A stretch of DNA of 64,000 nucleotides. Source: Candidatus Rokuibacteriota bacterium. Lineage in GTDB: Bacteria; Methylomirabilota; Methylomirabilia; Rokubacteriales; CSP1-6. Location of the stretch: NCBI GenBank assembly GCA_016188005.1, contig JACPIQ010000116.1:1-64000 (forward strand), in the 5' to 3' direction. Of this stretch, positions 4,187 to 42,791 are shown one piece after another. How positions within the stretch are numbered: the stretch's first letter is position 1; the number at the start of each line of letters is the position of its first letter. A model generated the notes under the pieces. The model saw nothing but the letters and a program-made list of their open reading frames with translations. It had not been told where the DNA came from and made no database searches. The translations under genes were made by a program, and so were the position numbers.

Positions 4187-4190
4187 GCGC

Positions 4191-14438: not shown

Positions 14439-15406
14439 TTCCTTCCTTGGAGCAGTTTCAAGAACGCCCACCGATACCGGGAGACGGCGCGGGCGGCATC
14501 GCCGCGCGCCTCGTACGCGCGTCCGAGCTCGTAGTAGCCACGGACAGGCTCCGGGTTGAGCATCACCGCCTCTTCGAGCAGGCGGATGCCCTCGTCGACC
14601 TGGCCGAGCCGGATACGCGCGATGCCGACGCCGACGCGCGCGCCCGGCGAGGTCGGGTTCTTCGCGAGCACGAACTCGAACTCCCGCAGCGCCTGAGCCG
14701 CTTCGTTCGTGTCGAGGCGGGCGTAGCCGAGCCCGAGGTGGGCCTGGGTGAGGTCTGGCTGGAGCGCCAGGGCCCTCGCCAGCTCGCGCGCCGCTTCCTC
14801 GTACCGCCGCTCCGACGCGAGCGCCGTGCCTTGCCTGTACGCGGCCTGCGCCGCCTCGGCGTCTCGCCCGTGCACCTCGCCGACGCTGACCAGGCGTGCC
14901 GTCACGTCTGCATCGGAGATCTCGCCCAGCGCCCGAAGGGTGTAGGCCTCGACGAGCCGGCGGTAGTTGCTGTTGCGGCTCGGCACATACGCCTTCAGAA
15001 CTCCTCGAGCGTCGACCACCGCAGTGCTGGGAAACACGATCACCCCGAACGCGTCAGACGCCTGCCGGTTCCTGTCCGTCGCCGCATCGAGGGGCGGTCG
15101 CGGCACGCGCCCGGCGCCGGATCCGGCCTCCGCGAGGGCGACGACCGCCACCCCCTTCGCGGAGAGCGCCGCCGCGAGCGCTTCGAGATCGGCCAGCGCT
15201 TCCTCCGAGAACACCTGCCCGGGCCGCCAGAACAGAAGGACCATCGGGCGCCCTGGCGCTGGCACCGCGACGCCCCGGCCGCCGGCGCCGTCGAGCGCGA
15301 GCGCGGGGACAGGGCTGTCCACGGGGACGTTCCGGAAGCCGAGCGCCGGACCCGCCAGGCCCAGCGTGGCCAGCACCGCGATCAGGAACGCGCGCAGGTG
15401 TCTCAT
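14435..15406 (-). CDS. Exported thioredoxin-fold (TlpA/AhpC-like) protein with TPR tail, no CxxC
   Basis: 323 aa. Signal peptide (LRAFLIAVLATLGLAGPALG), then an AhpC/TlpA-like fold: VPVDSPVPALALDGAGG, PMVLLFWRPGQVFSEEALAD and VFPSTAVVDARG. The position of the redox CxxC holds RPGQVFS, so no thiol-disulphide activity is expected. Residues from about 185 onwards are TPR repeats (ALALQPDLTQAHLGLGYARL, AVMLNPEPVRGYYELGRAYE). It may be a scaffold or assembly factor for the multihaem proteins encoded on either side. A second protein of the same design lies two genes upstream. Confidence 0.75.
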   Translation of the reverse strand: MRHLRAFLIAVLATLGLAGPALGFRNVPVDSPVPALALDGAGGRGVAVPAPGRPMVLLFWRPGQVFSEEALADLEALAAALSAKGVAVVALAEAGSGAGRVPRPPLDAATDRNRQASDAFGVIVFPSTAVVDARGVLKAYVPSRNSNYRRLVEAYTLRALGEISDADVTARLVSVGEVHGRDAEAAQAAYRQGTALASERRYEEAARELARALALQPDLTQAHLGLGYARLDTNEAAQALREFEFVLAKNPTSPGARVGVGIARIRLGQVDEGIRLLEEAVMLNPEPVRGYYELGRAYEARGDAARAVSRYRWAFLKLLQGRK

Positions 15407-15418
15407 CCGCCAGCCCTC

Positions 15419-16468
15419 CTAGTAGATGATGACGAGCTTGACGAGCCGGTCACGCGCCGCGACGTCGGCAGAATCGTAGACGACGAGGATCCCCAGCTCG
15501 GAGAACGATTCGGCCATGAGGTCGACCGGCAGATAGTGGAGCTTGCCGTCGGCCTTCGTTCCCGCCCCGGCCGCCGCGCGACCCGTCATGCGCAGGAACT
15601 CTCCGTACGTGAGCAGCCGCCCGGAGCCGAACACCGCGCGAACATCGCGGTCGAGCGTCCCCCACACCGGAAAGACGAAGATGGACTCGATGGGGCCGTC
15701 CGGCGAGGCGTTGACCGCGATGGACTCTGTCCGCAGCGGTGACGGCACGGCGTCGCCACGGAAGAGGAATGCGTCCGCAGTCCGCTGCAGGGCAGTGCCG
15801 AGGCGCTCGGTGGCGTCGACGAGGGTGCTCTGGCCCACCTTGAGCCCGAGCCACTCGTGAGCCTTGACCGGCTTCGCCTGGGCCCCGGCGCTCGCCACGG
15901 CCGTCGCGTCCGGCCGCCGGCCCGCGCCGTCGCGGACTCTGGCGAACTCCCGCTTCACGGTGGCCAGATGGTCGTCTGGGCTCTCGCGCAACACCTCCGC
16001 GACCCGGGGCAGCACTGCCGTGCCACCCTGCTGCAAGAGCGCCAGCGCCGCGAGACGCCGGACGAAGGGATCGGGGTCGGCGAGCATGGAGCTCAGCGCC
16101 TCCATCGCCTCGCTGCCCCCGATCTCGCCGAGCGCATCGGCGACAAGCCGCTTGCCCCACCGGTACGCCTCCTTTCGTCGCAGGTACTGCACCAGCGGCG
16201 GCACCGCCCGGCGGTCTCTCAGCTCGCCGAGCGCCTCGATGGCGACCCATCGAACATCACGCTTCTCGTCGCGGAGGGCGCCGAGAAGCGCCTCGAGGAC
16301 CTTCGGGTCCCGCGAGTGCCCCAGCTCGGCCACCGCCGCCATGCGCGTCGCCGTGTCGCGCGTGGTGCCGAGCGTCCGCAGCGCGGCGGCCACGTCGACC
16401 GCTGGTGCCTGCGCCAGGGCCGGGCCGGCAAGGAGCCACAGGAACCCCGCCAGGAGAGCGCGTCTCAT
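15419..16468 (-). CDS. Exported HEAT-repeat protein
   Basis: 349 aa with a signal peptide ending GPALAQA. Residues about 30-170 contain HEAT/PBS-lyase-type helical repeats (AALRTLGTTRDTATRMAAVA, ALRDEKRDVRWVAIEALGEL, LADPDPFVRRLAALALLQQG). The C-terminal part has no recognisable domain but includes a segment starting HEWLGLKVGQSTLVDATERL, reminiscent of small lipoprotein folds. Probably a periplasmic protein-protein interaction scaffold. It sits between the two thioredoxin-fold/TPR genes in the operon (gap 4 nt upstream, 12 nt downstream). Confidence 0.7.
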   Translation of the reverse strand: MRRALLAGFLWLLAGPALAQAPAVDVAAALRTLGTTRDTATRMAAVAELGHSRDPKVLEALLGALRDEKRDVRWVAIEALGELRDRRAVPPLVQYLRRKEAYRWGKRLVADALGEIGGSEAMEALSSMLADPDPFVRRLAALALLQQGGTAVLPRVAEVLRESPDDHLATVKREFARVRDGAGRRPDATAVASAGAQAKPVKAHEWLGLKVGQSTLVDATERLGTALQRTADAFLFRGDAVPSPLRTESIAVNASPDGPIESIFVFPVWGTLDRDVRAVFGSGRLLTYGEFLRMTGRAAAGAGTKADGKLHYLPVDLMAESFSELGILVVYDSADVAARDRLVKLVIIY

Positions 16469-16472
16469 CCGC

Positions 16473-17666
16473 TCACCTCCCGTAGGAGAGCGGGAACAGC
16501 TCCCGCCGCGTCTGCCACAGGAGCTCGACGCCCTTTCGGTAATGGGCCATCGCTTCCGGCTTCATCCCCCGCTCGTCATACGCCTGTCCCGCCGTCAGGT
16601 AGAGGCGCCACTCGAGGGGATTGAGCTTGATGGCGGCGTCCAGCTCCTGCCGGCCCCGCGCGACGTCGCCGCTCCTCAGCAGGAGCACCCCGAGCTGGGC
16701 CCGCGCCGGCGCGTACGCGGGGCTGGCCGCCACGGCTTTCTGGAGGAGCTGCCGCGCCGCGTCGGTCTCCTTCCGCGCCGCGCGGAGCGCGGCCAGCTCC
16801 GTCAGCGCCGCCGGGCTCGCCGGATCGATCTTGAGCGCCTCGCCGAGCGTCCCCTCGGCCTCGCGCAGGAACCCCTCGCGCTCCTCCGGCGTCAGCCGCA
16901 GCGTCACGACGGACTCCCCGTTGAACTGGATCGCCTCGAAGGCGACGGCGCGCTCGCGATAGGTTTGTCCGAGGAGGACGCGCGGCAGCGCAAAACCGGG
17001 GTCCAGCTCGATCGCCTTCTTCAAGTTGCCGTCCACCTGATCGACCAGCCCGCGGGCGAGCATCGCCCGCGCCAGATTGAAGTACCGCACGGCCCGGGGA
17101 TTGGGCTGCTTCCCCTCCGCGACCGCCCGCTTGGCCACCGCCCGTCCCGCCACGGTCGCCTCCACCAGCTCGAAGAACTCCTCCCGCCCGGCGATCGGAT
17201 ACGCCGCGAGATCGGCGAGGATCGTTCCGTCACCACGCATCAGCACGGTCGACGGCACCGCGACGACGCCGTAGCTGTGGAACACCGTGAGGCCGCGGTC
17301 GAGGAGCAGGGGAAACGTCACCCCGATCTTCTGGGCGAGGGCGCGGGCCTTCGCCAGCTCCTCGGGCGTGCTGGCCGGGCTCTCGACGTTGACGCCGAGG
17401 ATCACGAGGGCCGGCTCCGGCGACCGCGCGTGGAGCTTCTGCAGGCGAGCGAGGACCTCCGGCGACTTGTCGCTCCAGCTCGACCAGAAGACGAGGACGA
17501 TGGCACGAGCGCTGGCGAAATCGTGAAGGGCGACGGCCTTGCCCTCGAAGCTTTCCAGCGAGAAGTCCGGCGCCTTCATGCCGGGCTGGAGCGCCTCCAG
17601 GGCAGCCGCCGGCGCCGCCGCGGCCAGAGTCAGCACGACGAGTATGCCGAGTGCGCGTCTCAACAT
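16473..17666 (-). CDS. Exported thioredoxin-fold protein with TPR repeats, no CxxC
   Basis: 397 aa. Signal peptide (LGILVVLTLAAAAPAAALE), then an AhpC/TlpA-like domain: GMKAPDFSLESFEGKAVALH, IVLVFWSSWSDKSPEVLARL and VPSTVLMRGDG. The active-site CxxC is replaced by SSWSDKS, so it cannot act as an ordinary thiol reductase. TPR repeats fill the C-terminal half. Start ATG 17666 has AGAGGA 5 nt upstream; ATG 17672 is the alternative. It is the paralogue of the protein at 14435-15406. A chaperone-like or structural role in multihaem cytochrome biogenesis is an inference. Confidence 0.75.
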   Translation of the reverse strand: MLRRALGILVVLTLAAAAPAAALEALQPGMKAPDFSLESFEGKAVALHDFASARAIVLVFWSSWSDKSPEVLARLQKLHARSPEPALVILGVNVESPASTPEELAKARALAQKIGVTFPLLLDRGLTVFHSYGVVAVPSTVLMRGDGTILADLAAYPIAGREEFFELVEATVAGRAVAKRAVAEGKQPNPRAVRYFNLARAMLARGLVDQVDGNLKKAIELDPGFALPRVLLGQTYRERAVAFEAIQFNGESVVTLRLTPEEREGFLREAEGTLGEALKIDPASPAALTELAALRAARKETDAARQLLQKAVAASPAYAPARAQLGVLLLRSGDVARGRQELDAAIKLNPLEWRLYLTAGQAYDERGMKPEAMAHYRKGVELLWQTRRELFPLSYGR

Positions 17667-17675
17667 GGTCATCCT

Positions 17676-19172
17676 CTAGTCCGCCGTAAAGGTCCGGTAG
17701 TCGATCGGGTTCTGAACAGTTTGCTTGCGGTTGTAGCCCCGCGGCACGTGGCATCCGGGTGCGCACTTGCCGCCATTGGCGTACTTGACGTAATTCGTCT
17801 TCACTTCCCACCCGCCGAAGGGGACGCCCTCACGAATGTGCTTCGGGCGATGGGAGGCATGGGTCTCGTGGCAGGCGCGGCAGGTCCGCCCCTTGATCTG
17901 GTTGACGTGGCGGAAGTGGAGGCTCTCGCTGCCGTTCCGGAAGCCGGTCAGCGTGGTCGTGCTGCGCTCGAGGGCGAGGGTGGGCTCATGGCAGCCGAAG
18001 CAGAGTCCGTACTGCTCGCGGGCGAACGGCGCGTAGAACTCCTGCGGGTACGGCCGGCGCAGGATGCGGAAGTTGTCGGTGCCGTGGGGGTCGTGGCAGG
18101 CCGCGCAATCCTGCTGCCGGATGGGGCCATGCCAGTCCCTGTGCTCGCCGAGGAACGCTTTCATGTTCACGAGCATCTTGCCATCCGTCGCCTTCCGCTC
18201 GCGGTCGTGGCAGCGGAGGCAGAGCACCATCGGGGTGTCCTGGAGCTGCTTGGGGAAGTTCGTGAAGTGCGGGTCGTGGCAGTTGAGGCACCGGCGCTCG
18301 ATCTTCACGGCCTCATGATCCGTCCGGGCCGTCCCCACCTGGGTCTTCTTGTCCGGGTGGCAGCCGAAGCAGAGCTCGGGAACCGACCGCTGCACGCGGT
18401 AGGGGTTGGGCGAGGTGTGGGGGTCGTGGCAGTTCGAGCAGTCCAGCCGTGCCGGCACGTGCCCGAAGCGCTTGGGCGTGAACTCCGCGCGCTTCTCCGT
18501 GTGGCACGTGTAGCAGAGCTCGGGCCCCTGCTTGACGAGCCGGTACGGGTACGGAGAGGTGTGGGGGTCGTGGCAGGCAACGCACTGGCCCTCCGCCACC
18601 GGGCCGTGAACCTCCCGCTCGAGGGTCTTGTCGCGGTCGTGACACTGGTAGCAGAGCTGGCTCGGGGGGCTCTTCCGCAAGCGATACCGGTACGGCGACT
18701 GGTGCGGGTCGTGGCAGGCCCCGCAGAGGCCGAAACGCACGGGCCCGTGCACGACCTTCTGCGAGTCCATGCGCTGCTCGTGGCACATGTAGCAGAGGTC
18801 CCGCTCCGCCCGCGCCATTCGGAAGGCGTGCTTCTCACCGTCGTACGCCGTCTTCTCGTCCTTCGGCGTGTGGCACTTGGTGCACTCCCCGGCCGCCACC
18901 GGGCCGTGAACGTACCGGGCCTGGCCCATCTGGCTGTGACATGCCCCGGTCACGCACGACGGCTTGGCCGCGCGTTGCGCGACCGGGGCCGGCGCGGCGG
19001 AGGTGGGCCTGGCAGGGACCGGCGCCCCGGGGGCCGGCTTGGCGGGCGCCGTCGGCGCCTGCGGCGCCGGCGCGCTCGGCGGCGCGGCCTTGGGCTGGGC
19101 GTGGGCGGCCGCGGGCAATGCCATGAGTGACGCCGCGAGCCCGCCGAGCAGGACGACGACGCGCACGATCAT
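17676..19172 (-). CDS. Large exported multihaem cytochrome c, 13 CxxCH plus two atypical haem sites
   Basis: 498 aa. Signal peptide ending AAAHAQ, an Ala/Pro-rich linker to about residue 70, then closely spaced haem sites: 13 canonical CxxCH (from CTKCH to CRACH) in HDPHxSPxPYR-like repeats. At the N-terminal end CVTGACH has the CX4CH form, and near the C terminus CAPGCH has CX3CH spacing. Both atypical motifs are conserved in the sister protein at 20518-21942, so they are probably used, giving up to 15 haems. Likely a periplasmic or outer-surface electron carrier. The GTG/ATG start overlaps the preceding cytochrome gene stop (ATGA at 19169-19172). Confidence 0.9.
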   Translation of the reverse strand: MIVRVVVLLGGLAASLMALPAAAHAQPKAAPPSAPAPQAPTAPAKPAPGAPVPARPTSAAPAPVAQRAAKPSCVTGACHSQMGQARYVHGPVAAGECTKCHTPKDEKTAYDGEKHAFRMARAERDLCYMCHEQRMDSQKVVHGPVRFGLCGACHDPHQSPYRYRLRKSPPSQLCYQCHDRDKTLEREVHGPVAEGQCVACHDPHTSPYPYRLVKQGPELCYTCHTEKRAEFTPKRFGHVPARLDCSNCHDPHTSPNPYRVQRSVPELCFGCHPDKKTQVGTARTDHEAVKIERRCLNCHDPHFTNFPKQLQDTPMVLCLRCHDRERKATDGKMLVNMKAFLGEHRDWHGPIRQQDCAACHDPHGTDNFRILRRPYPQEFYAPFAREQYGLCFGCHEPTLALERSTTTLTGFRNGSESLHFRHVNQIKGRTCRACHETHASHRPKHIREGVPFGGWEVKTNYVKYANGGKCAPGCHVPRGYNRKQTVQNPIDYRTFTAD

Positions 19173-20517: not shown

Positions 20518-21942
20518 TCACTTGTTCGCCACCGCGGTCACCCGGTCGTAGCCGCGCGACACGTGGCACCCGGGCGTGCAACGGCCGCCGGTGTCGGTCT
20601 TCTGGTAGTTCGTCGGAACCTCCCAGCGGCCGAAGGACACGGACTCGCGGATCTGCTTGGGCCGCTTCGAGGCGTGCGTCTCGTGGCACGCGCGGCACGT
20701 GCGCCCCTTGTCCGGCCGGTTGACATGGACGAAGTGGAGGTTCTTCTCCCCGTTGCGGAAGTTGGTGAGCTTCACGGTCGAGGCCTCGAGGGCGAGAGTG
20801 GGCTCGTGGCAACCGAAGCAGAGGGCGTACTGCTCACTGGAGAACGGCGCATAGAACTGCCGCGGGTAGGCGCGGCGGAGAATACGGAAGTTGTCGGAGC
20901 CGTGCGGGTTGTGGCACGCAGGGCAGTCGCCCTGGCGGATGGGACCGTGGATCACGGGGTTGTCGGCCAGCCAGGCCTTCATGTTCATGATCTTGCCGGT
21001 TGGCGTTTCGAGCTCCTTGTCATGACAGCTCAGGCAGAGCTGGGCGGCCACCGCGCGCAGCTGCTTCGGCTGGTCGGCCGTGTGCGGGTCGTGGCAGTTC
21101 AGGCACTTCTTCTCGATCTTGTAGGCATCGTGCTGCGTGCGCGCTCCGGCGACATGCTTGCCCTGGGCCTGATGGCACGAGAAACAGAGCTCGGGGACCG
21201 GCTTGCGCGTGCGCGCCGGGTTGTCCGAGGTGTGGGGATCGTGGCAGCCGTTGCAGTTCTCGCGCGCCGGCTTGTGGCTGAACTTCCGCGTCGCGAACTC
21301 CTGCTTGCGCTCCTCGTGGCAGCCGAGGCAGAGCGTGTTGCCCTGAGCCGTGAGCCTCACCTTGTCCTTGCCCTGGTGCGGGTCGTGGCAGGCCGTGCAC
21401 TCGCCCAGGGCGACGGGACCGTGCACCTCCCTCGACGTCGTCTTGTCGTCCTTGTGGCACTTGAAGCAGAGCTTGGAAACCGGCGTTTCCTTGAGGCGAA
21501 AGCGATTCGGGGACTGATGAGGGTCGTGGCAGAACGAGCACTGCCCCCACTGGACCGGCCCGTGGACCACGGGCAGCGTGTTCTTCCGCTCGTGGCACGT
21601 GTAGCAGAGGTCGGCGCCATGGGCCACCAGCTCGAAGTCGCCCTCCGAATCCTTCGCTTTGGACGGGTGCGCCACGTTGGGCTTGGGGGTGTGACAGGCC
21701 TTGCACGCGCCAACGACCACCGGGCCGTGCACATACCGGTCCACCCCCATCTTGGCGTGACAGCCGCCGGTCGTGCACGAGGACCCGGCCGGCGGCGCAC
21801 CCTTGGCGGGCGGACCGGGCGTGGGTGCTGCGGTGGCCTGGGCCGGCTTGGTCGAGCCACCGCGGGGCTGGGCAGAGGCCGCCAGCGCCAGGGCGAGCGC
21901 CAGCACCGAGCAGGCGCCCACTGCGACCCAGCGGCCGATCAC
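20518..21942 (-). CDS. Large exported multihaem cytochrome c, sister of the protein at 17676-19172
   Basis: 474 aa, first gene of the long minus-strand operon. Signal peptide (LALALAASAQ), Pro/Ala-rich linker, then 13 CxxCH motifs (CKACH to CRACH) and the same two unusual ones as its sister: CTTGGCH (CX4CH) first and CTPGCH (CX3CH) last. Repeats of the CHDPHQSPNRFRL and CFGCHEPTLALE type match the other protein almost unit by unit, so the pair arose by duplication. GTG 21942 has GGGGCGAGG just upstream. A candidate -24/-12 promoter (22026-22011) precedes it. Confidence 0.9.
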   Translation of the reverse strand: MIGRWVAVGACSVLALALALAASAQPRGGSTKPAQATAAPTPGPPAKGAPPAGSSCTTGGCHAKMGVDRYVHGPVVVGACKACHTPKPNVAHPSKAKDSEGDFELVAHGADLCYTCHERKNTLPVVHGPVQWGQCSFCHDPHQSPNRFRLKETPVSKLCFKCHKDDKTTSREVHGPVALGECTACHDPHQGKDKVRLTAQGNTLCLGCHEERKQEFATRKFSHKPARENCNGCHDPHTSDNPARTRKPVPELCFSCHQAQGKHVAGARTQHDAYKIEKKCLNCHDPHTADQPKQLRAVAAQLCLSCHDKELETPTGKIMNMKAWLADNPVIHGPIRQGDCPACHNPHGSDNFRILRRAYPRQFYAPFSSEQYALCFGCHEPTLALEASTVKLTNFRNGEKNLHFVHVNRPDKGRTCRACHETHASKRPKQIRESVSFGRWEVPTNYQKTDTGGRCTPGCHVSRGYDRVTAVANK

Positions 21943-32259: not shown

Positions 32260-34284
32260 CTACTGGATGTCGCCCGAGGAGGGCGGCGTGTAGCGATGCT
32301 TGTCGTCGCCATCCATGGTGGTGCCACCGGTGCCGCCGCTCGGTTGGTGGCACACCAGGTAGCACCGTCGCTGCCGGGTCGCAGTGTTGAAGCACCACTC
32401 GGGCTTGGTGCGGCTGCCCAGGCGCAGGATATTCGGATGGAAGTTGATGAGCCGGGTCGTGGAGAGCGCGACCATGTTCGGGTTCGTGGTGAGGGTCCCG
32501 GCCCCGCAGTTGGTGCTGGTCACCCGGTATTGAGTGTTCGACGCCTCCACGTTGGAGTGGATGTTGTAGTGGCAGCTCTTGCAGAGCGGCCGCGACTTGT
32601 CCACGCGGTCGATCAGGTGCACCCAGTGGAGGTTGTCCTTGCCGCCGGCCTCATCGTAGAAATTCGTCCGCGCCCCGTCCCCGGTCCGGCGCGCGGTCAA
32701 GCGCGTCACGTCGTGACAATGGAAGCAGAGGTCGAAGTTGGCCGAGGACCAGGAGCTCGGGCCCGGGAGCACGTTCCGGACCCGCGCCCGGAGCAGGTTG
32801 AAGCGGTCGGAGCCGTGCGGTCCCTTGGGCTGGGCCTCGTTCGCCGGGTACTGCGACACCACCCCCGTGAACGAGGGGCCGGAGAAGAAATTGTTGTTGT
32901 GGCAGTCCGTGCACCGGATCACCGAGGAGGTCGAGAGCCCGTTGGGCGAGAGCTGGGCGTTGAGATTCGACGAGGTGTTCTTGCCCGCGCCGGCGACAGG
33001 ATGGTAGGAGCTGTTGGCCGTCTGGAACTCCGTGCGCTTGTTGCCCGTCGGGATCGAGCCTGAGGGGTCGCCGGACACGCTGGTGCCGATGACGGTCGAG
33101 TAGGTGTCCCCGTGGCACCTGAAGCAGATCTCGTACTCGTTGATGTTGCGGTCCAGGGTGACATCCTGGACGGCGGCGCCGGACAGGTCGATCGCCCGCA
33201 TCCCCTCGTACACGCCTCCGGTCCCCGCCGTGCCCCGCGCCCTCACGCGGTGCGGGTTGTGGCAGTCCGTACACTCGACGTGCTTGCTGGTGTTGAGCAC
33301 CGCCTCGGCCGTGGGCGTCGACGTCGTGAACACGGGCTCGTGCCCCAGGTAATCGGCGATCGGATGGCGCCTGGCCTTGGCGAACTGCGTCTTGATGTCG
33401 AAGGTGATGCCGCCCTGCGCGGTGGGCGCGTGGCACCGGTAGCAGGTTTCCTCGATCGCTGGCGCCCCGCCGGAGGTCGCGCCCTCGCGGAGCAGTCGCG
33501 GCGCGCCGGGCTTGGTGTGGGGCGTGTGGCAGGCGCTGCACGACAGCTCCGCGACGGATGTCCCCGAGCCAGCGGGGAAGAACTTCGTGGTGGCGGACTC
33601 GTGGCTGGAGCTGGACCAGCCTGGCTTGACGTGACAGGTCAGGCACAGGTTGTCGGTGCGGCCCGTGAGCGGCTTCTTGAGGAACTTGGGGTTCAGGACC
33701 AGGTGGGGATCGTGACAGGTCGTGCACTGGACCGAGTCGCGGACCCCGATGGTGACGCCCTCGTACAGGCGGATGGGGCCCGTGAGCGCGCTCGGGGCCA
33801 CCAGCTCGCCATCCGCCGTGGTGAGGGACTGATTGAAGATGAACGATACAGGGTGGTCGTTGGTGAGATTCGTCCCGATCAGGGTGCTCCCCGCTGGGAG
33901 AACGCCTCCGGGACCCGTCCCTTGCATGTTGATGGTCGCGGACTGGGCACCGAGGTTGTTCACGCTACCGATGGCGATGGTGCCGTCGTGGCACGACAGA
34001 CACAGGCGCGAGTAGCCGTTGGGCTGGGCGACGGTGGCCTGCAGGGAGCCGCTGGCGTAGGGGGTGTAGGTGGCCCCCGACAGCGAGCGGTTCCAGAGGG
34101 GGGCCACGGGGTTGGCGTTGTGCGGGGTGTGGCAGAAGACGCAGATCTGCGTCTCGCTCAGGGCCCGGACGGGGCCCGGCCCGCTCACCGACAGGTTGTG
34201 CTTCGAGGACACCATCCCCTGGCCGCTCGCCTGGGCGCAGGACATGGCCACCAGCGCCAGAGCCAGCCCGAGCGACCGGATCAC
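32260..34284 (-). CDS. Large exported multihaem cytochrome c, 11 CxxCH plus one CX3CH
   Basis: 674 aa with a signal peptide (LGLALALVAMSCAQASGQ). Eleven CxxCH: CVFCH, CLSCH, CTTCH, CLTCH, CSACH, CYRCH, CTDCH, CFRCH, CTDCH, CFHCH, CKSCH; then CYLVCH (CX3CH) near the end. The first ~230 residues match the whole 37446-38204 protein (KHNLSVSG, CVFCHTPH, PLWNR, CLSCHDGTIA, NDHPVSF). Haems are widely spaced with long loops, as in outer-surface cytochromes. GTG start overlaps the upstream NHL gene stop (GTGA). Third gene of the beta-barrel/NHL/cytochrome operon. Confidence 0.9.
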   Translation of the reverse strand: MIRSLGLALALVAMSCAQASGQGMVSSKHNLSVSGPGPVRALSETQICVFCHTPHNANPVAPLWNRSLSGATYTPYASGSLQATVAQPNGYSRLCLSCHDGTIAIGSVNNLGAQSATINMQGTGPGGVLPAGSTLIGTNLTNDHPVSFIFNQSLTTADGELVAPSALTGPIRLYEGVTIGVRDSVQCTTCHDPHLVLNPKFLKKPLTGRTDNLCLTCHVKPGWSSSSHESATTKFFPAGSGTSVAELSCSACHTPHTKPGAPRLLREGATSGGAPAIEETCYRCHAPTAQGGITFDIKTQFAKARRHPIADYLGHEPVFTTSTPTAEAVLNTSKHVECTDCHNPHRVRARGTAGTGGVYEGMRAIDLSGAAVQDVTLDRNINEYEICFRCHGDTYSTVIGTSVSGDPSGSIPTGNKRTEFQTANSSYHPVAGAGKNTSSNLNAQLSPNGLSTSSVIRCTDCHNNNFFSGPSFTGVVSQYPANEAQPKGPHGSDRFNLLRARVRNVLPGPSSWSSANFDLCFHCHDVTRLTARRTGDGARTNFYDEAGGKDNLHWVHLIDRVDKSRPLCKSCHYNIHSNVEASNTQYRVTSTNCGAGTLTTNPNMVALSTTRLINFHPNILRLGSRTKPEWCFNTATRQRRCYLVCHQPSGGTGGTTMDGDDKHRYTPPSSGDIQ

Positions 34285-35300
34285 GGCAGACCTCTCACGT
34301 ACTGGAACATCTGGACCCGGTTGTTGTAGCTGTCCGCCACGTAGATCCGGTCCTGCCCGTCGATGTGCAACCCGGTGGGCAGCCAGAAGTTGCCAGGAGC
34401 ATGCCCCGTGGCTCCGATCCCGAGCAAGAACCGCCCCGTCACGTCGAAGATCTGCAGTACATCGTGGATTCCCTCGACCACGTAGACGTGCCCCTCCGAG
34501 TCCAGTGCAAGGCCCTTGGGTTGGGCGAAGTCACCGCTTCCGTCGCCGTGGCGACCGAAGTGCCCGCGGGGCTGGCCGTCGGCAGAGAAGATCTTGACCT
34601 GGAAGTTCATCGTGTCCGCGACGTAGATGACTCCGGCTCGGTCCACCGAGATGTTGGTGGGATAGTTGAACCCTGCGGCGCCCGCTCCCCGCTGGCCGAT
34701 GGTCCCGAGCCGCTTCCCCGCAGGGTCGAAGACGGCCACCTGATGAGCCAGGGTGTCGACCACGTAGACGCGGTCCCCCCTGGGGGACACTGCCAGGCCT
34801 GTGGGTCGCAGCAGGTCCTGGCCGAACTCGCGCAGCAGCTTCCCGCTCCGGTCGAAGGCGCCCACCCGTCGCATCTGGGAGTCCGAGATGTACACGCTGC
34901 CGTCGGGGGCCACGGCAATCCCGATGGGCGTCTCGAAAGGCTGCTTGCCCATCTGCTTGATGGCGCTGTACTTCTGGGCCTGGACGTCGAAGATGTGGAT
35001 CACCCGCGCGGCAGAATCGGCGACGTACACCCGGCCAGCCCGGTCCGCCGCGACGCCATAGGGCCGCTGCAGGCGAATCTCCTCTCGCCCCGCAAGGACC
35101 TCCCACAGCCGCCCGAGCCACGACTTCGGCGCCTCGATGTCCTCCGGCCGCGAGAGGCTACCGACATACCGGACCCGTGCGGGCTCCGGCGGCGGCGGCC
35201 AGACCAGAACCGGCACCGCCGCGGGGGGCGGGGGCGTGGGGCCGCAGGCCGCGGCGGCCAAGAGGATCGAGAGCACGAGGCCCGCCCGGCGCGATCTCAT
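34281..35300 (-). CDS. NHL-repeat lipoprotein
   Basis: 339 aa. Lipobox LLAAAAC near residue 20 predicts lipidation. Five or six NHL-type beta-propeller repeats follow (PYGVAADRAGRVYVADSAAR, PIGIAVAPDGSVYISDSQMR, PTNISVDRAGVIYVADTMNF, GLHIDGQDRIYVADSYNNRV). Such propellers bind protein partners. Next to a beta-barrel and a multihaem cytochrome it is likely an outer-membrane structural partner. Start ATG 35300 overlaps the beta-barrel stop (ATGA). A relative is encoded at 38270-39334. Confidence 0.85.
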   Translation of the reverse strand: MRSRRAGLVLSILLAAAACGPTPPPPAAVPVLVWPPPPEPARVRYVGSLSRPEDIEAPKSWLGRLWEVLAGREEIRLQRPYGVAADRAGRVYVADSAARVIHIFDVQAQKYSAIKQMGKQPFETPIGIAVAPDGSVYISDSQMRRVGAFDRSGKLLREFGQDLLRPTGLAVSPRGDRVYVVDTLAHQVAVFDPAGKRLGTIGQRGAGAAGFNYPTNISVDRAGVIYVADTMNFQVKIFSADGQPRGHFGRHGDGSGDFAQPKGLALDSEGHVYVVEGIHDVLQIFDVTGRFLLGIGATGHAPGNFWLPTGLHIDGQDRIYVADSYNNRVQMFQYVRGLP

Positions 35301-37081
35301 GGCCACGCGAAGCTGTAGCTCAGCGGGCGGGTGATCCTGAGGAAGACGCGGCTGCGCTCGGTGTCCGTGTCGGGGCGGGTCAGCACGGATTGCTCGAAGT
35401 CAAGGGTGATGCTCCAGATACGGAAGCGATAGGACACAGATCCGCGCACGCCGTGGCGGACTTCGTCGACGACCGGCTCGCGCTCGAGAAAGCCTTCCAC
35501 TTGCCCCTGCAGCGTCCCGAGCCTCACCGTGGCCTGGCCCCGGATGGCGTCGGAGTCGAAGTCGCCGGACTTGTCCTCCAGCTGGACCTGACGGACGCCC
35601 CGACGGCCGGAGAGCGACAGCGTGAGCCAGTACAGCGGGGCGGCGTCGATCCCACCCTCCCCGGCATAGCTCGTCTCCTCCGTCGGCACCCTCCCCCCTC
35701 CGCTCGTGGCGCGGTGCGTGTACTCCGAGGCCGCCCGCAGCGTCAACGGCGGCGCCACGGTGACGACGGCCTCCAGGCGGGCCCGCTGCCCGTCCTGCGT
35801 GCCGTCACCCTCCTGGCGGTCCAGCCCGACCGTCCCCTCGAGCGTCGTCCTCGGGATGACGAGGCTGGTCACACCGAGACTGCCCGACTGCGAGACGAAC
35901 GGCTCGGCGGACCCGCCTCGCTCGAAGAGGTTCACGTAGTAGTCAGCGGTCAGGGTGTGGCGCGGGAAGAACGTGCTTCCAGCTCCCAGGTGACCGCGGT
36001 GGCTGATGGTGGCGGCCTGCTCGCCCCCGGTGATCTGTGTCCCGTAGTCGGCGGCCGTGCGTAGATGCGGCAGCGGGGTGGCGCTCACCCCGCTGAAGAG
36101 GCCGCCGAACCAGTCGATCCCCTCAGTCCCCACGAGCCCGCCATTGGCGCCACCCGTGACGGTGAGGTTGGGGGTGATCCGCTTCGTCAACGTTCCGTCG
36201 GCGGCGACGGACTGCGTCGTGCTTCCCGCGCGTTCATCGACCGTGTAGCGCATCGTCGCGCCGCCGTCGAGCGTCGGGGACAGCGGGCCCGCCAGGCCGA
36301 GGGCGCCGGACGCCTGCTGCTCCAGCTCGGACCGCCGGTACGTGAGGCTGGGAGTGAGGAATCCCTGTGCGCCGATGCGCACCCGGTCCTGGTACTGGAG
36401 GGAGTGAGTGAGGTCCTGCTCCGGCAGGCCCTCCGCGCCTGTCCCCTGGCGGTTCCGCTCCACGCTCTCCAGACGGTAGCTCACCGTTGGGGTGGCGCGC
36501 TCGAAGCTCTTCCGGAGATCCAGCGAGGCACTCATGCGCGTCTCGTCAAGGACCAGGCCGGGGCCGATGGTCTCCACCGTCTCCCGCCTGAAGGCCACCG
36601 AGCTCTCCGGCAACAGCGCGCTGCCCCGGTAGTTCCAGCCCACCCCCTGCCGTTCGGTGGTGACGGTGGTGAACAGGGAGATCCCGCTCTGGCTGAACGT
36701 GCTCTCTGCCACCGAGCGCGAGGCCTCGATGTCGAACGAGTGCGGCGACTGCGGAAAGAAGTTGAGCCTGATCTGGTATGGATCGAGAAGGACGGACTCG
36801 CTGCTCGCACCCGACCCCTCCGTGGACTGGTCGGCATACGTCCCGGCCGCGGAGAACACGAGGAAGCGCGGGCTCCAGACGAACCCGTCCAGGGTCGGGC
36901 TGTAGAGGCTCCCCCAGCTGAGAGTCTGCGCCGTGCTGTCTCCGGTTCGCAGCCGATCCAGACCCCCGGTCGTCTCGATCCGGCCGGAGAGCCTGACCTG
37001 CACCTGTGCGCGGGCGATATCCACCGGCCCGAGGGCCGCTCCCATGAGTGCCACGGCCACGGCCACCGCGCGCCATCCCAC
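35297..37081 (-). CDS. Outer-membrane beta-barrel protein (porin-cytochrome type candidate)
   Basis: 594 aa. Signal peptide (VAVAVALMGAALGPVDIARAQ), then almost entirely alternating polar/aromatic beta strands: VQVRLSGRIETTGGLDRLRT, LNFFPQSPHSFDIEASRSVA, TLTADYYVNLFERGG, RIWSITLDFEQSVLT. About 20 or more strands can be counted, and the protein ends SYSFAW-P. No haem motif and no CxxC. Gene order barrel-NHL-multihaem cytochrome resembles porin-cytochrome conduits that pass electrons through the outer membrane. GTG 37081 (or TTG 37084) is chosen from the signal peptide; the frame is open to 37270. Family identity to MtrB or OmbB is not proven. Confidence 0.7.
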   Translation of the reverse strand: MGWRAVAVAVALMGAALGPVDIARAQVQVRLSGRIETTGGLDRLRTGDSTAQTLSWGSLYSPTLDGFVWSPRFLVFSAAGTYADQSTEGSGASSESVLLDPYQIRLNFFPQSPHSFDIEASRSVAESTFSQSGISLFTTVTTERQGVGWNYRGSALLPESSVAFRRETVETIGPGLVLDETRMSASLDLRKSFERATPTVSYRLESVERNRQGTGAEGLPEQDLTHSLQYQDRVRIGAQGFLTPSLTYRRSELEQQASGALGLAGPLSPTLDGGATMRYTVDERAGSTTQSVAADGTLTKRITPNLTVTGGANGGLVGTEGIDWFGGLFSGVSATPLPHLRTAADYGTQITGGEQAATISHRGHLGAGSTFFPRHTLTADYYVNLFERGGSAEPFVSQSGSLGVTSLVIPRTTLEGTVGLDRQEGDGTQDGQRARLEAVVTVAPPLTLRAASEYTHRATSGGGRVPTEETSYAGEGGIDAAPLYWLTLSLSGRRGVRQVQLEDKSGDFDSDAIRGQATVRLGTLQGQVEGFLEREPVVDEVRHGVRGSVSYRFRIWSITLDFEQSVLTRPDTDTERSRVFLRITRPLSYSFAWP

Positions 37082-37445: not shown

Positions 37446-38204
37446 CTACCCGTCCTTCTTGTGGCAGGTCAGGCAGAGAGCGCTGCCGGTATTGTCCACA
37501 CGGAGGAAGGTCTGGGTGTTGGCCCGGTGCGGATCGTGGCAGGAGGCGCACTGCACCTTCCCGCTGTAGAGCCTGACGCCGCCGGTGCCGATGAGCTCGC
37601 CCGTGACCGTCTTGAAGCCGACGGTATAAGCCGGGGCCCCGTTCCCGTCTGTGGCGCTCGGGCTCCTGGCATCGATATACGTCATCGAGACGGGATGGTC
37701 GTTCGACAGATCGGTGCCGATCAACGTGATGCCGACCGGCATCTTCTTGTTAGTCGTGCCCTGGAAGGTCCAGTTGCTCGTGCCGTCCGCGCTCGGGGTC
37801 TCCGTGAAACCGCCGGACCCTGGCAGGTTCCGGAGAGCGTCGAAGGCGATGGTGCCGTCGTGGCAGGACAGGCACGCCAGCGACACGCCCGAGGGCTGGG
37901 TCGGCTGGGCGTCCAGCGTCGCGCTGTTGTACAGCGTGTATCCCCCGGAGGTGTTGATGGCCCGGTTCCACAGCGGAGCGGCCACGGTGGTATCCGCGCC
38001 GTGTGGCGTGTGACAGAAGACGCACACCTCGCCCGTCCCCGACGTGACGTGGATGGCGCCGGTGCCCGATGTCGAGAGGTTGTGCTTGGTCTGGAGGATG
38101 CTCGTCAGCCCGGTGTCCTGGGCCCACGCCCCTCCCGCCGCGATCAACCCCAGCGCCACCGCCCCCGCCAGGACGATGACTGCCTGCCGCATGACCGCTC
38201 TCAT
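37446..38204 (-). CDS. Exported tetrahaem cytochrome c (CxxCH)
   Basis: 252 aa. Signal peptide (VIVLAGAVALGLIAAGGAWA) and four motifs: CVFCH, CLSCH, CASCH and CLTCH. Surrounding sequence (KHNLSTSG, CVFCHTPHGAD, APLWNRAI, CLSCHDGTIAFDAL, NDHPVSMTY, CASCHDPHRANTQTFL) matches the first third of the 12-haem protein at 32260-34284, so this is a single-module version of it. ATG 38204 has GGGAGGG about 8 nt upstream. Co-transcribed with the NHL gene upstream, 65 nt away. Confidence 0.9.
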   Translation of the reverse strand: MRAVMRQAVIVLAGAVALGLIAAGGAWAQDTGLTSILQTKHNLSTSGTGAIHVTSGTGEVCVFCHTPHGADTTVAAPLWNRAINTSGGYTLYNSATLDAQPTQPSGVSLACLSCHDGTIAFDALRNLPGSGGFTETPSADGTSNWTFQGTTNKKMPVGITLIGTDLSNDHPVSMTYIDARSPSATDGNGAPAYTVGFKTVTGELIGTGGVRLYSGKVQCASCHDPHRANTQTFLRVDNTGSALCLTCHKKDG

Positions 38205-38269: not shown

Positions 38270-39334
38270 CTAGCGCGTCGCCTCGCGGCTACGTCCTGCA
38301 GGTGCTGCCGATTCACCCACCGGCTCGAAGACCTGGACCCTGCGGTTGTACTGATCGACCACGTAGATGCGGTCGCGTTCGTCGATGTGGATTCCCGCCG
38401 GCAGCCAGAATTCGCCGAACTTGCTGCCGAGGCCGCCGACGAAGAGGAGCAGCTGCCCCTCCTGGTTGAAGATCTGGAAGTTGTTGAACGCGGCGTCGGT
38501 GACGTAGACGTTCCCGCCGCTGTCCACCGCCACCCCCTTCGGCCTGGCGAACTGCCCGAAGTTCGCGCCGACCTCGCCGTACTTCCGGAGGAATTCTCCC
38601 TTCGGGGAGAACACCTGGACCCGGAAGTTCATCGTGTCGGTCACGTACAGGGCTCCGCCCTTCATGTGCAGATGCGTGGGGAAATTGAACTTGCCGGGCT
38701 CGGTGCCCCGTTCGCCGAACTCGAAGAGGAAGCGGCCGCTCTGCGTGTCGTACACGCGCACCTTGTGGCGGCCCGCGTCGGCGACGTACAGGCGCCCGGC
38801 GGTGCGGTCGATCGCCAGCCCCGCGGGCGAGTAGAACTCCCCCTGGGCGCCGATGGCCAAGGCGACCTTGCCGCTCTCGTCGTAGGCGAAGACCCGGTCC
38901 TGGCTCGTGTCGGAGACGAAGACGTACCCGCGGGCGTCCACCGCCACCCCGGACGGAGTCTTGAGCTGGCCCTGGCCGTCGGTGCCGAGGTACCGCACCT
39001 GCTGCTTCTCCTTGTCGAAGACCCAGACCCGCCCGCCGCCGGTGTCGGTGACGTACACGCGTCCCTTGTCGTCCGACGTCACCGCGTACGGCTTCCCCAT
39101 CCCCTCACCCTGGTTCCCGCCGGGCCCGGCCACGACGTCTTTGAGCCAGTTCGTGGACGGAGGCTTGAACTGGTCGGAACGGTAGAGGGTCTCGACGTAC
39201 CGGATGCGGGGCTGCTCGGGCGGCAGCGGCCAGACGAGCTCGACGGGCTTGGGTGGAACCGCCGTGGCACAGCCCGCTGCGGCGATTGCCAGCACCAGGA
39301 TCCCTGCCCCTCGGCTCACTGCGTCCGGCCCCAT
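38270..39334 (-). CDS. NHL-repeat lipoprotein
   Basis: 354 aa. Signal with lipobox (LVLAIAAAGC). NHL beta-propeller repeats: KPYAVTSDDKGRVYVTDTGG, TPSGVAVDARGYVFVSDTSQ, SPAGLAIDRTAGRLYVADAG, PKGVAVDSGGNVYVTDAAFN. It aligns over its length with the protein at 34281-35300, including the WPLPPEQPRIRYV opening (WPPPPEPARVRYV there). ATG 39334 is preferred: TGAGG lies 6 nt upstream, and the candidate -24/-12 promoter would start RNA near 39350, which excludes ATG at 39364. It leads a two-gene unit with the tetrahaem cytochrome. Confidence 0.85.
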   Translation of the reverse strand: MGPDAVSRGAGILVLAIAAAGCATAVPPKPVELVWPLPPEQPRIRYVETLYRSDQFKPPSTNWLKDVVAGPGGNQGEGMGKPYAVTSDDKGRVYVTDTGGGRVWVFDKEKQQVRYLGTDGQGQLKTPSGVAVDARGYVFVSDTSQDRVFAYDESGKVALAIGAQGEFYSPAGLAIDRTAGRLYVADAGRHKVRVYDTQSGRFLFEFGERGTEPGKFNFPTHLHMKGGALYVTDTMNFRVQVFSPKGEFLRKYGEVGANFGQFARPKGVAVDSGGNVYVTDAAFNNFQIFNQEGQLLLFVGGLGSKFGEFWLPAGIHIDERDRIYVVDQYNRRVQVFEPVGESAAPAGRSREATR

Positions 39335-39359
39335 TGCGAACCTCATGGGGAGGCAGGAC

Positions 39360-39375
39360 TGCAAGGAGTGTTCCC
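39360..39375 (-). promoter_or_regulatory. Candidate sigma-54 (-24/-12) promoter of the NHL/cytochrome operon
   Basis: Minus-strand sequence GGGAACACTCCTTGCA has GG and GC 10 nt apart and a full TTGCA -12 element. The predicted start near 39350 gives a ~15-nt leader with a TGAGG site before ATG 39334. A GGGGAAATTCCC element at 39424-39435 lies ~50 nt upstream. Confidence 0.45.
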
Positions 39376-39494: not shown

Positions 39495-40886
39495 TCAGCT
39501 GTCGCTGATGTCGGCGCGGGTCGCGAGGTCGAACTTCTTGACCCGGTAGCGCAGCTCGTCCCGCGTCAGCCCGAGGAGTCTGGCCGCATGGGTCTGGTTG
39601 CCGTGTGTCAGCTCCAGGGCCTGCCGGACGAACTCGCGCTCCACATCCTCGAGCACGACTCCCGTCGAAGGGATCTGGAAGCGCGGCTGCTCGCGGGGGG
39701 GGTCCGCCGGGCGCGCGGCAATCTCCGGCGGCAGATCTCCGGGGGTGAGCTCCCCCGACTCCACGAGAATCATGGCGCGCTCGATCACGTTGCGGAGCTC
39801 GCGCACGTTGCCGGGCCAGTCGTAGTGCACGAGCAGCCGTTCGGCCGGGGAGCCGAGCCGCGGCACCCGCTTCTTGAACTCACGGCCGAAGTGCTCGAGG
39901 AAGTGCCGCGCCAGGAGCGGGATATCCTCCCGGCGCTCCCGGAGCGGGGGAATCGTGATCGTGACGACCTGGAGGCGGTAGTAGAGGTCCTTGCGGAACG
40001 CCCCCTCGTCCACCGCGGCGCGCAGGTCCTTGTTCGTCGCCGCCACCACGCGGATGTCCACGCTGATGTCCTTGGTCCCGCCGACACGGCGGAAGCGGCG
40101 CTCCTCCAGCACGCGGAGCAGCTTGGCCTGGAGCGCGGGCGTCATGTCTCCGATCTCGTCGAAGAAGATCGTCCCGCTGTGCGCCAGCTCCAGCAGCCCC
40201 TTCTTCTGCACCTTGGCGTCGGTGAAGGCACCCCGCTCGTGCCCGAACAGCTCGGACTCGAGCAGTGTCTCCGGCATGGCGGTGCACGTGATCTCCATGA
40301 ACGCCTCGTCGGCGCGGGCGCTCTCGTAGTGGACGGCCTTCGCCAGGACATCCTTCCCGGTGCCGCTCTCCCCCTGGATCAGCACGGTGGTCGCCCCGCT
40401 GGCGCTGACCTTGCGCGCCAGCGACACCACGTCCTGGATGGCGCGGCTCGTGCCGACCAGGCGGTCGAAGTGAAAGGGGTACAGATGCTTCTCGCGGAGG
40501 AACTCCACCTTCTGCCTGAGCTGCCGGGTCTCGAGGGCATTCCTGAGGGTCACGCCCAGGTTCTCGAAGTCGATGGGCTTGGCGATGTAGTCGTAGGCAC
40601 CGAGCCGCATGGCCTCCACGGCGGTGCCGACGTCGGCGTAGGCGGTCATGATGATCACCTGAATGTCGGGATGGCTCTCCTTGACCTGGCGGAGGATCTG
40701 GATGCCGTCGGTGTCGGGCAGCTTGAGGTCCAGCAGGAGCAGGTCGGGAACCTCGTCCCGGACGGCCGCGACTGCGCGCGCGCCGTCCTCCGCCGTCTCG
40801 ACGTCGTAGCCGTGCTTCTCGAGCGTCTGCTCGAGGGACCAGCGGATCAGGCGCTCGTCGTCAACGACCAGCACTCTGGATGGCAT
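39495..40886 (-). CDS. NtrC-family sigma-54-dependent response regulator
   Basis: 463 aa in three parts. Receiver domain: VLVVDDERLIRW, phospho-acceptor Asp53 (LLLLDLKLPDTDG), Lys in YIAKPIDF. AAA+ domain: GESGTGKDVLAK (Walker A), the sigma-54 contact loop as GAFTDA (the common form is GAFTGA), SGTIFFDEIGDM (Walker B). C-terminal Fis-type HTH: LTHGNQTHAARLLGLTRDEL. It should activate -24/-12 promoters when phosphorylated by the kinase encoded just upstream, whose 3' end it overlaps by 26 nt. ATG 40886 has AGGAG 8 nt upstream; GTG 40895 is an alternative. Confidence 0.92.
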   Translation of the reverse strand: MPSRVLVVDDERLIRWSLEQTLEKHGYDVETAEDGARAVAAVRDEVPDLLLLDLKLPDTDGIQILRQVKESHPDIQVIIMTAYADVGTAVEAMRLGAYDYIAKPIDFENLGVTLRNALETRQLRQKVEFLREKHLYPFHFDRLVGTSRAIQDVVSLARKVSASGATTVLIQGESGTGKDVLAKAVHYESARADEAFMEITCTAMPETLLESELFGHERGAFTDAKVQKKGLLELAHSGTIFFDEIGDMTPALQAKLLRVLEERRFRRVGGTKDISVDIRVVAATNKDLRAAVDEGAFRKDLYYRLQVVTITIPPLRERREDIPLLARHFLEHFGREFKKRVPRLGSPAERLLVHYDWPGNVRELRNVIERAMILVESGELTPGDLPPEIAARPADPPREQPRFQIPSTGVVLEDVEREFVRQALELTHGNQTHAARLLGLTRDELRYRVKKFDLATRADISDS

Positions 40887-42126
40887 GGGTGTCACTCCTC
40901 GCCCCGTTGACCGGAGGCGTTGCGGGCAGCGCGATCGTGAACGTTGTGCCGTGCCCCAGCGAGCTCTCGACCGTGATGCGGCCGCCGTGCTGCTCGATCA
41001 CCCGGGCGGCAATGGCCAGCCCGAGCCCCGTCCCCTGGGCCTTGGTCGTGAAGAACGGTTGGAAGATGCGGGTGAGGTGCTCGCTCGCGATGCCCCCTCC
41101 CGTGTCGCTGATCCGGACCTCCACCGAGCGCGCCCGGGCCGGCGGCACGCGGGTCTCCAGCGTCAGCCGGCCCCCCTGGGGCATCGCCTGCCGCGCGTTG
41201 ACGAGGATGTTGAGGAAGGCCTGGTGGAGGAGGCTCGGATCGACGTAGACGGCCGGGAGCGAGCCGTCCAGTCGGCGAACGATCTGGATGTCCCCGCGTG
41301 GAAGGAACTGCAGACTCTGCTCCAGCAGTCCGTTGATCTCCACCGCGATCCGCTCCGGCGTCACTGGACGGGCGTGCTGGAGAAGCTCCGTCAACGTCCT
41401 GTTCATGCGGGAGATCTGGGCCTGGACATCAGCCAGCAGGGCGGCCCGCTCGTCCCCGGGCGCCAGCCGGCTGCCGAGGACGTGGAGCGCGCCCGAGATG
41501 CCCGCCAGCGGGTTCCGGAGCTCATGCGCGAGCCCCGCCGCCAGCTCGCCCACCGTCGCCAGCCGGTCCGACCGGAGCAGCTGCTCCTGCTGGCGTTCAA
41601 GGGCGTGCTGGCGCCGCCGGGCCTGCTCGGCCACCACGCCCATGCACAGGCCGACGAGGCCGAAGAACGCCACCCGCAGCGCGAACCCCGGCTGCGGCGG
41701 GGGCCAATCGCCCGCGAGGGCGTAGAGACCTGTCGCGGCAGCGGCAGTTGCCAGCCCCGTGAGCAGGCCGAAGTAGAAGGCGTGGAGCGCGATGAGGAGC
41801 GTGAAGGCGAGGTGCAGGTCGCTCGAGAACCCGCCGGTGATCCGCACCAGGAAGAAGACCACGGCCAAGTCGAAGACGAGCGCGACCTTGTACAGGAGCG
41901 CGATGCGCCCTGGACGTATCGCATTCAGGACATAGATGCCGACGCTGAACGCCAGGAACATCCCCAGGATCGGAAGCCGGGGCGCTCGTGTCCAGTCCGG
42001 CGCCAGGGCCCACCACAGGGTGCCCGCCGCCAGCGTCGCCGCGCGGAGCCCAAGGAACCAGAGGTCGAGCGGCTCGAGCCCCACGCGGCGGCCCCAGCGC
42101 GCGAGCTGCGCTCCGACGTCCTTCAT
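40861..42126 (-). CDS. Membrane histidine kinase
   Basis: 421 aa. Five or six TM helices in the first ~170 residues (no large periplasmic domain), then HisKA with GELAAGLAHELRNPLAGISG (phospho-His) and HATPase with NILVNARQAM (N box), ISDTGGGIA (G1) and GTGLGLAIA (G2). Similar in layout to ZraS/AtoS-like NtrB-type kinases. The signal is probably sensed within the membrane, such as redox or quinone state, but that is a guess. It overlaps the TPR gene (ATGA) and the regulator gene. Confidence 0.9.
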   Translation of the reverse strand: MKDVGAQLARWGRRVGLEPLDLWFLGLRAATLAAGTLWWALAPDWTRAPRLPILGMFLAFSVGIYVLNAIRPGRIALLYKVALVFDLAVVFFLVRITGGFSSDLHLAFTLLIALHAFYFGLLTGLATAAAATGLYALAGDWPPPQPGFALRVAFFGLVGLCMGVVAEQARRRQHALERQQEQLLRSDRLATVGELAAGLAHELRNPLAGISGALHVLGSRLAPGDERAALLADVQAQISRMNRTLTELLQHARPVTPERIAVEINGLLEQSLQFLPRGDIQIVRRLDGSLPAVYVDPSLLHQAFLNILVNARQAMPQGGRLTLETRVPPARARSVEVRISDTGGGIASEHLTRIFQPFFTTKAQGTGLGLAIAARVIEQHGGRITVESSLGHGTTFTIALPATPPVNGARSDTHAIQSAGR

Positions 42127-42791
42127 CCGCGCCGCCCGCCTGCGGCAATCTGGCGCCGGGCTTCGGCCAGCATGGCCCGCGCTCGGTCCGCGTCCGGGCC
42201 ACTCGGCACGAGGGCCAGGAAGGCCCCGAGGGCCTCCTGGGCGGCGGCATAGTCCTTCTTCCCCGTGAAGAGGAGGTTTGCGCGGTCCCAGTGGGCGTGA
42301 GCGTACTTCGGATCGAGGCGGATCGCCTCCTCGATGCGGGCGAGCGCCTCGTCCAGGTGCTTGCCCTGGTAGAGGATGAGGCCCATGTGCGTCATGGCCT
42401 CGACGTTCCGCGGCTCACGGGCGAGGACCCGCTTGTACGCCCAGATGGCCGCGGGGATCTGGCCCTCGTCCAGCCCCAGATGGGCGAAGGCCAGCAGCTT
42501 CTTGCTCGGCGCGTCCTCGCGTTCGACCTCCTTGCGCAGCATCTCGAGCTCCGCGCTGATGGCAGGGGCAATGGCCGCCCCGCTCACCGCTGCGGCCGGT
42601 CGGGGTGCGGCCGCGCCCTGGTTCGACGTCGAGCGCCCGAGGACCAGGCCCATGGTCACGCCCAGGACCACGAGCAGCCCTGCGCCGAGGGTGAGCGCCA
42701 GCGGGCTGCGCAGTCGCCCTGCCAGAGTTTGAGGCTTCGAGGCCGCCGCGGTCGATTCCCGCCGCGCCTCGAGGTCGCCCGGCGCCGTCAT
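42123..42791 (-). CDS. TPR protein with one transmembrane helix
   Basis: 222 aa. One TM helix (LALTLGAGLLVVLGVTMGLV) near residue 45, then TPR repeats (AHLGLDEGQIPAAIWAYKRV, MGLILYQGKHLDEALARIEE, HAHWDRANLLFTGKKDYAAA). Similar to cytochrome-biogenesis-type CcmH/NrfG TPR proteins in layout only. Its place at the head of the kinase-regulator operon suggests a role in sensing or cytochrome assembly. Start at 42791 with a GGGGGG-type site upstream. Confidence 0.75.
   Translation of the reverse strand: MTAPGDLEARRESTAAASKPQTLAGRLRSPLALTLGAGLLVVLGVTMGLVLGRSTSNQGAAAPRPAAAVSGAAIAPAISAELEMLRKEVEREDAPSKKLLAFAHLGLDEGQIPAAIWAYKRVLAREPRNVEAMTHMGLILYQGKHLDEALARIEEAIRLDPKYAHAHWDRANLLFTGKKDYAAAQEALGAFLALVPSGPDADRARAMLAEARRQIAAGGRRG

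Follow-up and report, generated by a model that had tools for sequence, protein, structure and literature searches.

The window analysed here is a stretch of 64,000 nucleotides (positions 1 to 64,000 of contig JACPIQ010000116.1, assembly GCA_016188005.1) from Candidatus Rokuibacteriota bacterium, and its subject is a minus-strand trio of genes encoding, in this order, a predicted outer-membrane beta-barrel, an NHL beta-propeller lipoprotein (NHL A) and a 12-haem cytochrome. The barrel and NHL genes share an ATGA at their stop-start junction (35300-35297), and a GTGA (34284-34281) likewise combines the NHL stop codon with the GTG start of the cytochrome gene. Upstream, all on the same strand, lie a second pair consisting of a four-haem cytochrome and a further NHL protein (NHL B), a response regulator, a sensor kinase and a tetratricopeptide repeat (TPR) protein. 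An earlier sequence-only reading had described the overlapping three-gene order, the 12-haem cytochrome with its NHL lipoprotein, and a neighbouring pair holding the first module of that cytochrome alone; coordinates and strand bear out the first, motif counts, lipobox and Pfam the second, and the 48% identity of the four-haem cytochrome to residues 6-224 of the 12-haem protein the third. Its interpretation of the trio as an outer-membrane electron conduit is still the best reading, because a probably wide barrel and a high-haem cytochrome are conserved as a trio, but it missed that the first cytochrome module is homologous to the nanowire protein OmcE, which changes the likely mechanism.

The 12-haem cytochrome contains 11 CXXCH motifs and one CX3CH motif (CYLVCH), and therefore 12 haems, together with a paired-CXXCH domain recognized by Pfam (E 4e-25). 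The profile of its family matches PDB entry 7TFS (E 1e-48), and single-sequence phmmer searches reach the same entry from residues 5-199 of the 12-haem protein (E 9e-27) and from nearly the full length of the four-haem protein (E 4e-30). Entry 7TFS represents OmcE, the four-haem cytochrome filament of Geobacter, where two subunits each contribute one His to the ligation of a haem at their interface (PMC12954529). Four CXXCH motifs and four further His residues are conserved between the four-haem protein and OmcE. Because of this homology, the 12-haem protein can be described as an OmcE-like unit fused to an 8-haem unit.

Searching with the window cytochrome gathered 78 loci from genome contigs, in which relatives take two forms: a 12-haem form of ~550-680 residues with a terminal CX3CH, and an 11-haem form of ~800-950 residues, mostly from Proteobacteria. 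The window protein is 37-40% identical over its full length to aligned 11-haem proteins, which are of the UetJ type, from the undecahaem electron transfer (Uet) conduit. Barrel, NHL and cytochrome genes are contiguous in 17 of the 18 12-haem loci with enough upstream sequence, the sole exception (L055) having an 11-haem-type arrangement, while a barrel stands exactly two genes upstream in 0 of 32 11-haem loci; these counts were corrected by tblastn for the NHL genes of L014, L035 and L069 and the cytochrome gene of L089. An OmcE-like gene accompanies 14 of 17 12-haem loci. The full order of kinase, regulator, NHL B, four-haem cytochrome, barrel, NHL A and 12-haem cytochrome is retained in L011 and L012, and a second trio in the same genome as the window (L091, contig C123) has kinase, regulator, NHL and four-haem genes in matching order. 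Because the gene order is conserved elsewhere, a chance arrangement is ruled out. The titles of the carrier records name Planctomycetes, Omnitrophota, Eisenbacteria, Victivallales, Deltaproteobacteria and Gammaproteobacteria, labels that are provisional because most of the records are metagenome-assembled genomes.

A third related cluster of the same genome (L092, contig C104, 82000-100000) encodes a cytochrome matching the 8-haem half only, a SurA-like isomerase, a 14-haem cytochrome and a 747-amino-acid protein that ends in F and is barrel-like in appearance. A short contig titled Desulfurococcales archaeon (L074), possibly binned in error, encodes a stretch that resembles OmcE and shares 48% identity with the window cytochrome. 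At position 286 of the aligned mature 12-haem cytochrome a conserved His is replaced by Met in the 11-haem proteins and in L012, and the proteins with Met might contain a His/Met-ligated haem.

In six loci (L064, L080, L082, L085, L086 and L087) a separate gene encodes the 8-haem unit, and an OmcE-like four-haem gene precedes it wherever the contig reaches far enough upstream. All six separate 8-haem proteins start with a His shortly before the first CXXCH, at the position of His207 of the fused protein, which lies 10 residues past haem 4 and is invariant in 22 aligned fused proteins; free four-haem relatives mostly end 2 residues past haem 4. On the strength of these C-termini, the split genes and the His207 match, the fused protein looks like a covalent reproduction of a subunit-subunit joint, and we hypothesise that its own invariant N-terminal His8 is free to join a preceding four-haem subunit. 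Conserved candidate His residues outnumber the haems, and a cross-subunit ligand is not decided by their count alone.

The NHL propellers are sorted according to their cytochrome partners. In a maximum-likelihood tree, those encoded beside 11- or 12-haem cytochromes separate from those beside four-haem cytochromes with 3 changes of label, compared with 19 when the labels are shuffled (0 of 500 shuffles as low as 3); NHL A of the window groups with the former and NHL B with the latter. The single Cys of NHL A is that of its lipobox, LAAAAC, and a strict lipobox rule is satisfied by at least 49 of 63 NHL proteins compared with 1 of 63 cytochromes, the window cytochrome being among those that fail it. 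Since NHL proteins sort by partner and carry a lipobox that the cytochromes rarely have, the propeller is most simply viewed as a partner-specific lipid anchor or assembly factor. The same clades and lipobox counts led us to reject the NHL protein as a substitute for a periplasmic haem protein, as the sequence-only reading had it, and MtrA-like cytochromes are in any case encoded in the window. Geoalkalibacter, Desulfovibrio ferrophilus and Dethiobacter are earlier reported cases of NHL proteins next to cytochromes, OmcE-like ones among them.

The barrel protein, which carries a signal peptide (ARA|Q) and lacks Cys, diverges strongly in sequence. It has no match in Pfam or NCBIfam, a single-sequence search of 99 relatives recovered only itself, and blastp among neighbourhood barrels, syntenic ones included, gave it no pairwise match. 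Profiles built from other loci only, leaving out the window barrel, nevertheless recognize it: one from 16 trio-type barrels (E 1.7e-12), one from 5 L011/L080-type barrels (E 1.8e-10) and a UetC-type profile (E 6e-6, among all neighbourhood proteins). The remaining non-member matches of these profiles were barrels of like clusters, and no protein outside such clusters was matched. Against solved structures the barrel profile gave nothing significant and no MtrB-type match. An AlphaFold (AF2) model from 17 sequences resolves 14 N-terminal and 8 C-terminal barrel strands with good confidence, and Foldseek relates it to the transmembrane barrels of receptors and ushers. With at least 22 modelled strands, and with the trio as widely conserved as described above, neither the small pore nor the lack of conservation that the sequence-only reading had named as possible objections was found.

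No periplasmic multihaem cytochrome is encoded inside the trio, and the candidates for this role are two 13-haem proteins whose genes lie 10-15 kb away. The best PDB match of the one at 17676-19172 is 6r2q chain A (E 3e-20), which we take to be MtrA. Its orthologues adjoin like clusters in L011 and L012 (E<1e-220), which keep the 13-haem block seen here at 14.4-19.2 kb, the conserved block near their trio including one 14-haem copy. Compact MtrA-like cytochromes with 13-14 haems adjoin the relatives L011, L012, L017 and L039; in L017 the barrel gene stands immediately before a 14-haem cytochrome gene, and in L020 a 10-haem gene overlaps the barrel start. The periplasmic partner is thus probably a 13-haem cytochrome at 17.7-21.9 kb and not the propeller.

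Table 1. Features of the cluster and of associated genes in the window, with the basis of each assignment.
Feature	Position	Strand	Basis
Outer-membrane beta-barrel (predicted), UetC-like, 594 aa including signal peptide	35297..37081	-	Profile matches, AF2 model
NHL beta-propeller lipoprotein A, UetI-like, lipobox LAAAAC	34281..35300	-	Pfam NHL, E 4e-35
12-haem cytochrome, UetJ-like: OmcE-like module plus 8-haem module, no conserved lipobox	32260..34284	-	Pfam, motif count, homology
OmcE-like tetrahaem module of 12-haem cytochrome, haems 1-4	33625..34221	-	phmmer to PDB 7TFS, E 9e-27
Invariant N-terminal His of 12-haem cytochrome (His8)	34198-34200	-	Present in 22/22 aligned relatives
8-haem module of 12-haem cytochrome, haems 5-12	32263..33624	-	Separate gene in six loci
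Invariant His (His207) starting 8-haem module	33601-33603	-	Alignment of relatives
Free-standing OmcE-like tetrahaem cytochrome, UetA-like, candidate filament subunit	37446..38204	-	phmmer to 7TFS, E 4e-30
NHL beta-propeller lipoprotein B, partner of tetrahaem cytochrome	38270..39346	-	Pfam NHL, E 1e-37; NHL tree clade
Sigma-54-dependent response regulator, AtoC/NtrC type	39495..40895	-	Domain searches; equivalent place in L011, L012
Sensor histidine kinase, partner of regulator	40861..42126	-	Kept beside cluster in L011, L012, L016, L017, L091
TPR protein, gene overlapping kinase gene	42123..42791	-	Domain search; relative near second copy in own genome (L091)
Compact 13-haem cytochrome, candidate periplasmic partner	17676..19172	-	13 CXXCH in 498 aa
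Second 13-haem cytochrome, paralogue of 17676..19172 protein	20518..21942	-	Sequence comparison
Three genes (TPR, unnamed, thioredoxin-like plus TPR) 3' of 13-haem cytochrome	14435..17672	-	Block also in L011, L012

Scans for regulatory sequences gave no signal. A sigma-54 promoter scan of the window returned 53 matches where 56 were expected, and sigma-70 and terminator scans did no better than on shuffled sequence; a weak -24/-12-like site at 39361-39375, directly before the start of NHL B, is not above chance in the window. Elsewhere in the window, positions 1521-6446 encode a protein like subunit I of cytochrome bd oxidase, followed by cytochrome c genes, one of whose products is joined to an ethylbenzene-dehydrogenase haem domain. 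At the edge of polysaccharide genes, a minus-strand open reading frame of 191 amino acids (31624-32199) resembles the start of the flippase-like protein encoded at 26736-28007 and is apparently a truncated second copy of it.

Because a barrel, an anchored propeller and a 12-haem cytochrome with a nanowire-like front end adjoin, the gene set probably wires the cell interior to electron donors or acceptors outside. On balance, we lean towards reading the cluster as the outer-membrane base of an OmcE-type cytochrome filament, built as a compact Uet-like conduit. In this model the barrel would span the outer membrane, and the 12-haem cytochrome would be exported or inserted at that membrane and held there by its own NHL lipoprotein, since it lacks a lipid anchor of its own. 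The C-terminal 8-haem half would dock in or on the barrel, the OmcE-like N-terminal module would project outward, and the invariant N-terminal His would complete the axial ligation of the final haem in a filament of the neighbouring four-haem protein. On the inner side, the partner in electron exchange would be a compact cytochrome of the periplasm, for which the 13-haem proteins are the probable candidates.

A number of observations weigh against this model. The AlphaFold prediction of the 12-haem cytochrome is unusable (predicted local distance difference test, pLDDT, 41) and leaves haem stacking, ligand swap and barrel fit unsupported, and the protein, with ~55 residues per haem, exceeds known barrel-inserted cytochromes in bulk. 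Residues 279-419 of the barrel, a stretch of ~140 residues, are unmodelled in AF2, so that the strand total is at least 22 and perhaps 26-28, and MtrB is not among the 50 best Foldseek fold matches listed for it. Homology to OmcE does not by itself establish polymerisation, and what cytochrome filaments do physiologically is disputed in published work (PMC11077965; PMC13194489). The distribution is patchy as well, given that only 3 of 95 genomes of the class have the system.

The same parts could belong to a station for filament secretion and assembly, in which the barrel mainly exports OmcE-like cytochromes and the NHL proteins control folding or filament shape, as proposed for the osc system, with transmembrane electron transfer left to something else. 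Like parts do surround a filament cytochrome in osc (PMC13194489, citing Shen et al. 2025), a dedicated chaperone would suit an NHL clade for each cytochrome type, and Uet clusters carry a peptidyl-prolyl isomerase (PMC10734462). We nonetheless regard this explanation as unlikely, as no isomerase occurs among the window proteins scanned and the conserved 8-haem extension on the base cytochrome fits conduction better than export. Slightly less likely still is an ordinary porin-cytochrome conduit devoid of filaments, with the 12-haem protein as terminal cytochrome on the outer surface, a 13-haem protein in the barrel and the four-haem protein as a separate surface cytochrome. The compact 13-14-haem cytochromes here and beside L011, L012, L017 and L039 speak for it, as do the barrel/14-haem adjacency in L017 and the 10-haem/barrel overlap in L020, but the OmcE-like module on a surface cytochrome, and the OmcE-like gene beside most 12-haem loci, are then left unexplained. 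That the locus has nothing to do with extracellular electron transfer, its barrel being unrelated to a neighbouring redox or sensory cluster of the periplasm, we consider very improbable, in view of the contiguity of barrel, NHL and cytochrome genes across distant lineages, all with Uet homologues, and of a module homologous to a known extracellular filament protein.

Beyond the filament-base model, we put forward more tentatively, and with less than even confidence, that the 12-haem cytochrome may be a dedicated end-cap, a single filament subunit linked covalently to an 8-haem conduit domain, joining an OmcE-type nanowire to the barrel, which would make Uet and OmcE parts of one system. It is still open and disputed by what means cytochrome nanowires are fixed to the cell and by what route electrons cross the outer membrane to reach them; such an end-cap, if real, would provide the first physical connection to be identified between such a nanowire and its cell. 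Filament subunit, base protein, barrel and anchored propellers would stand side by side in the locus as specific, testable partners. The arrangement suggests that Uet, in bacteria that oxidise electrodes or iron, has parts in common with the OmcE nanowires of Geobacter, and it widens the range of the compact form to lineages of soil and groundwater that are not known for such metabolism. In the readable literature, which does not cover key papers on Uet, archaeal filaments and osc, no statement was found identifying UetA and UetJ as homologues of OmcE, and no priority is claimed.

Among known systems, the Mtr/Omb-type porin-cytochrome conduits place a wide outer-membrane barrel beside high-haem cytochromes, as the window probably does too, but there is no sequence link between the barrels, the lipoprotein is the surface cytochrome there and the propeller here, and the window trio itself lacks a periplasmic cytochrome. 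The putative conduits PCC3 and PCC4 (He et al. 2017) also combine a porin with multihaem cytochromes; for PCC3 a conserved inner-membrane protein and very large cytochromes are described, and NHL proteins go unmentioned (PMC5566968). The OmcE nanowire of Geobacter sulfurreducens (7TFS) is matched over nearly its whole length by the window four-haem protein, and both end a few residues past haem 4, whereas the window homologue, which may form filaments as well, is encoded beside its own barrel and a 12-haem relative that adds 8 further haems to the unit. The osc (OmcS companion) operon of Geobacter, compared by its cited description only, joins a filament cytochrome to a channel-like protein, and OscD is propeller-like. 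In OmcS filaments, roles have been proposed for OscH in folding, OscEFG in secretion and OscD in morphology (PMC13194489, citing Shen et al. 2025), and OmcS has no sequence similarity to OmcE (PMC12977616). The closest comparison is with Uet (uetABCDEFGHIJ), described from Tenderiales and also Gallionella (PMC10734462). The window has homologues of UetA (four-haem), UetC (barrel), UetI (NHL) and UetJ, and shares the order A-C-I-J. It differs in having 12 haems with a terminal CX3CH, as opposed to 11 in UetJ, a 570-650-residue barrel directly before the NHL and cytochrome genes, and an extra NHL before the four-haem gene. UetB and UetD-H are absent, with no isomerase (UetB) among 20 window proteins scanned and no trihaem gene (UetD, E, G) in the cluster. 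Judged from its gene content, without UetB and UetD-H and with 12 haems, the window set is therefore a compact Uet variant and not a strict member, and its arrangement is not unprecedented but that of a compact relative of the Uet conduit.

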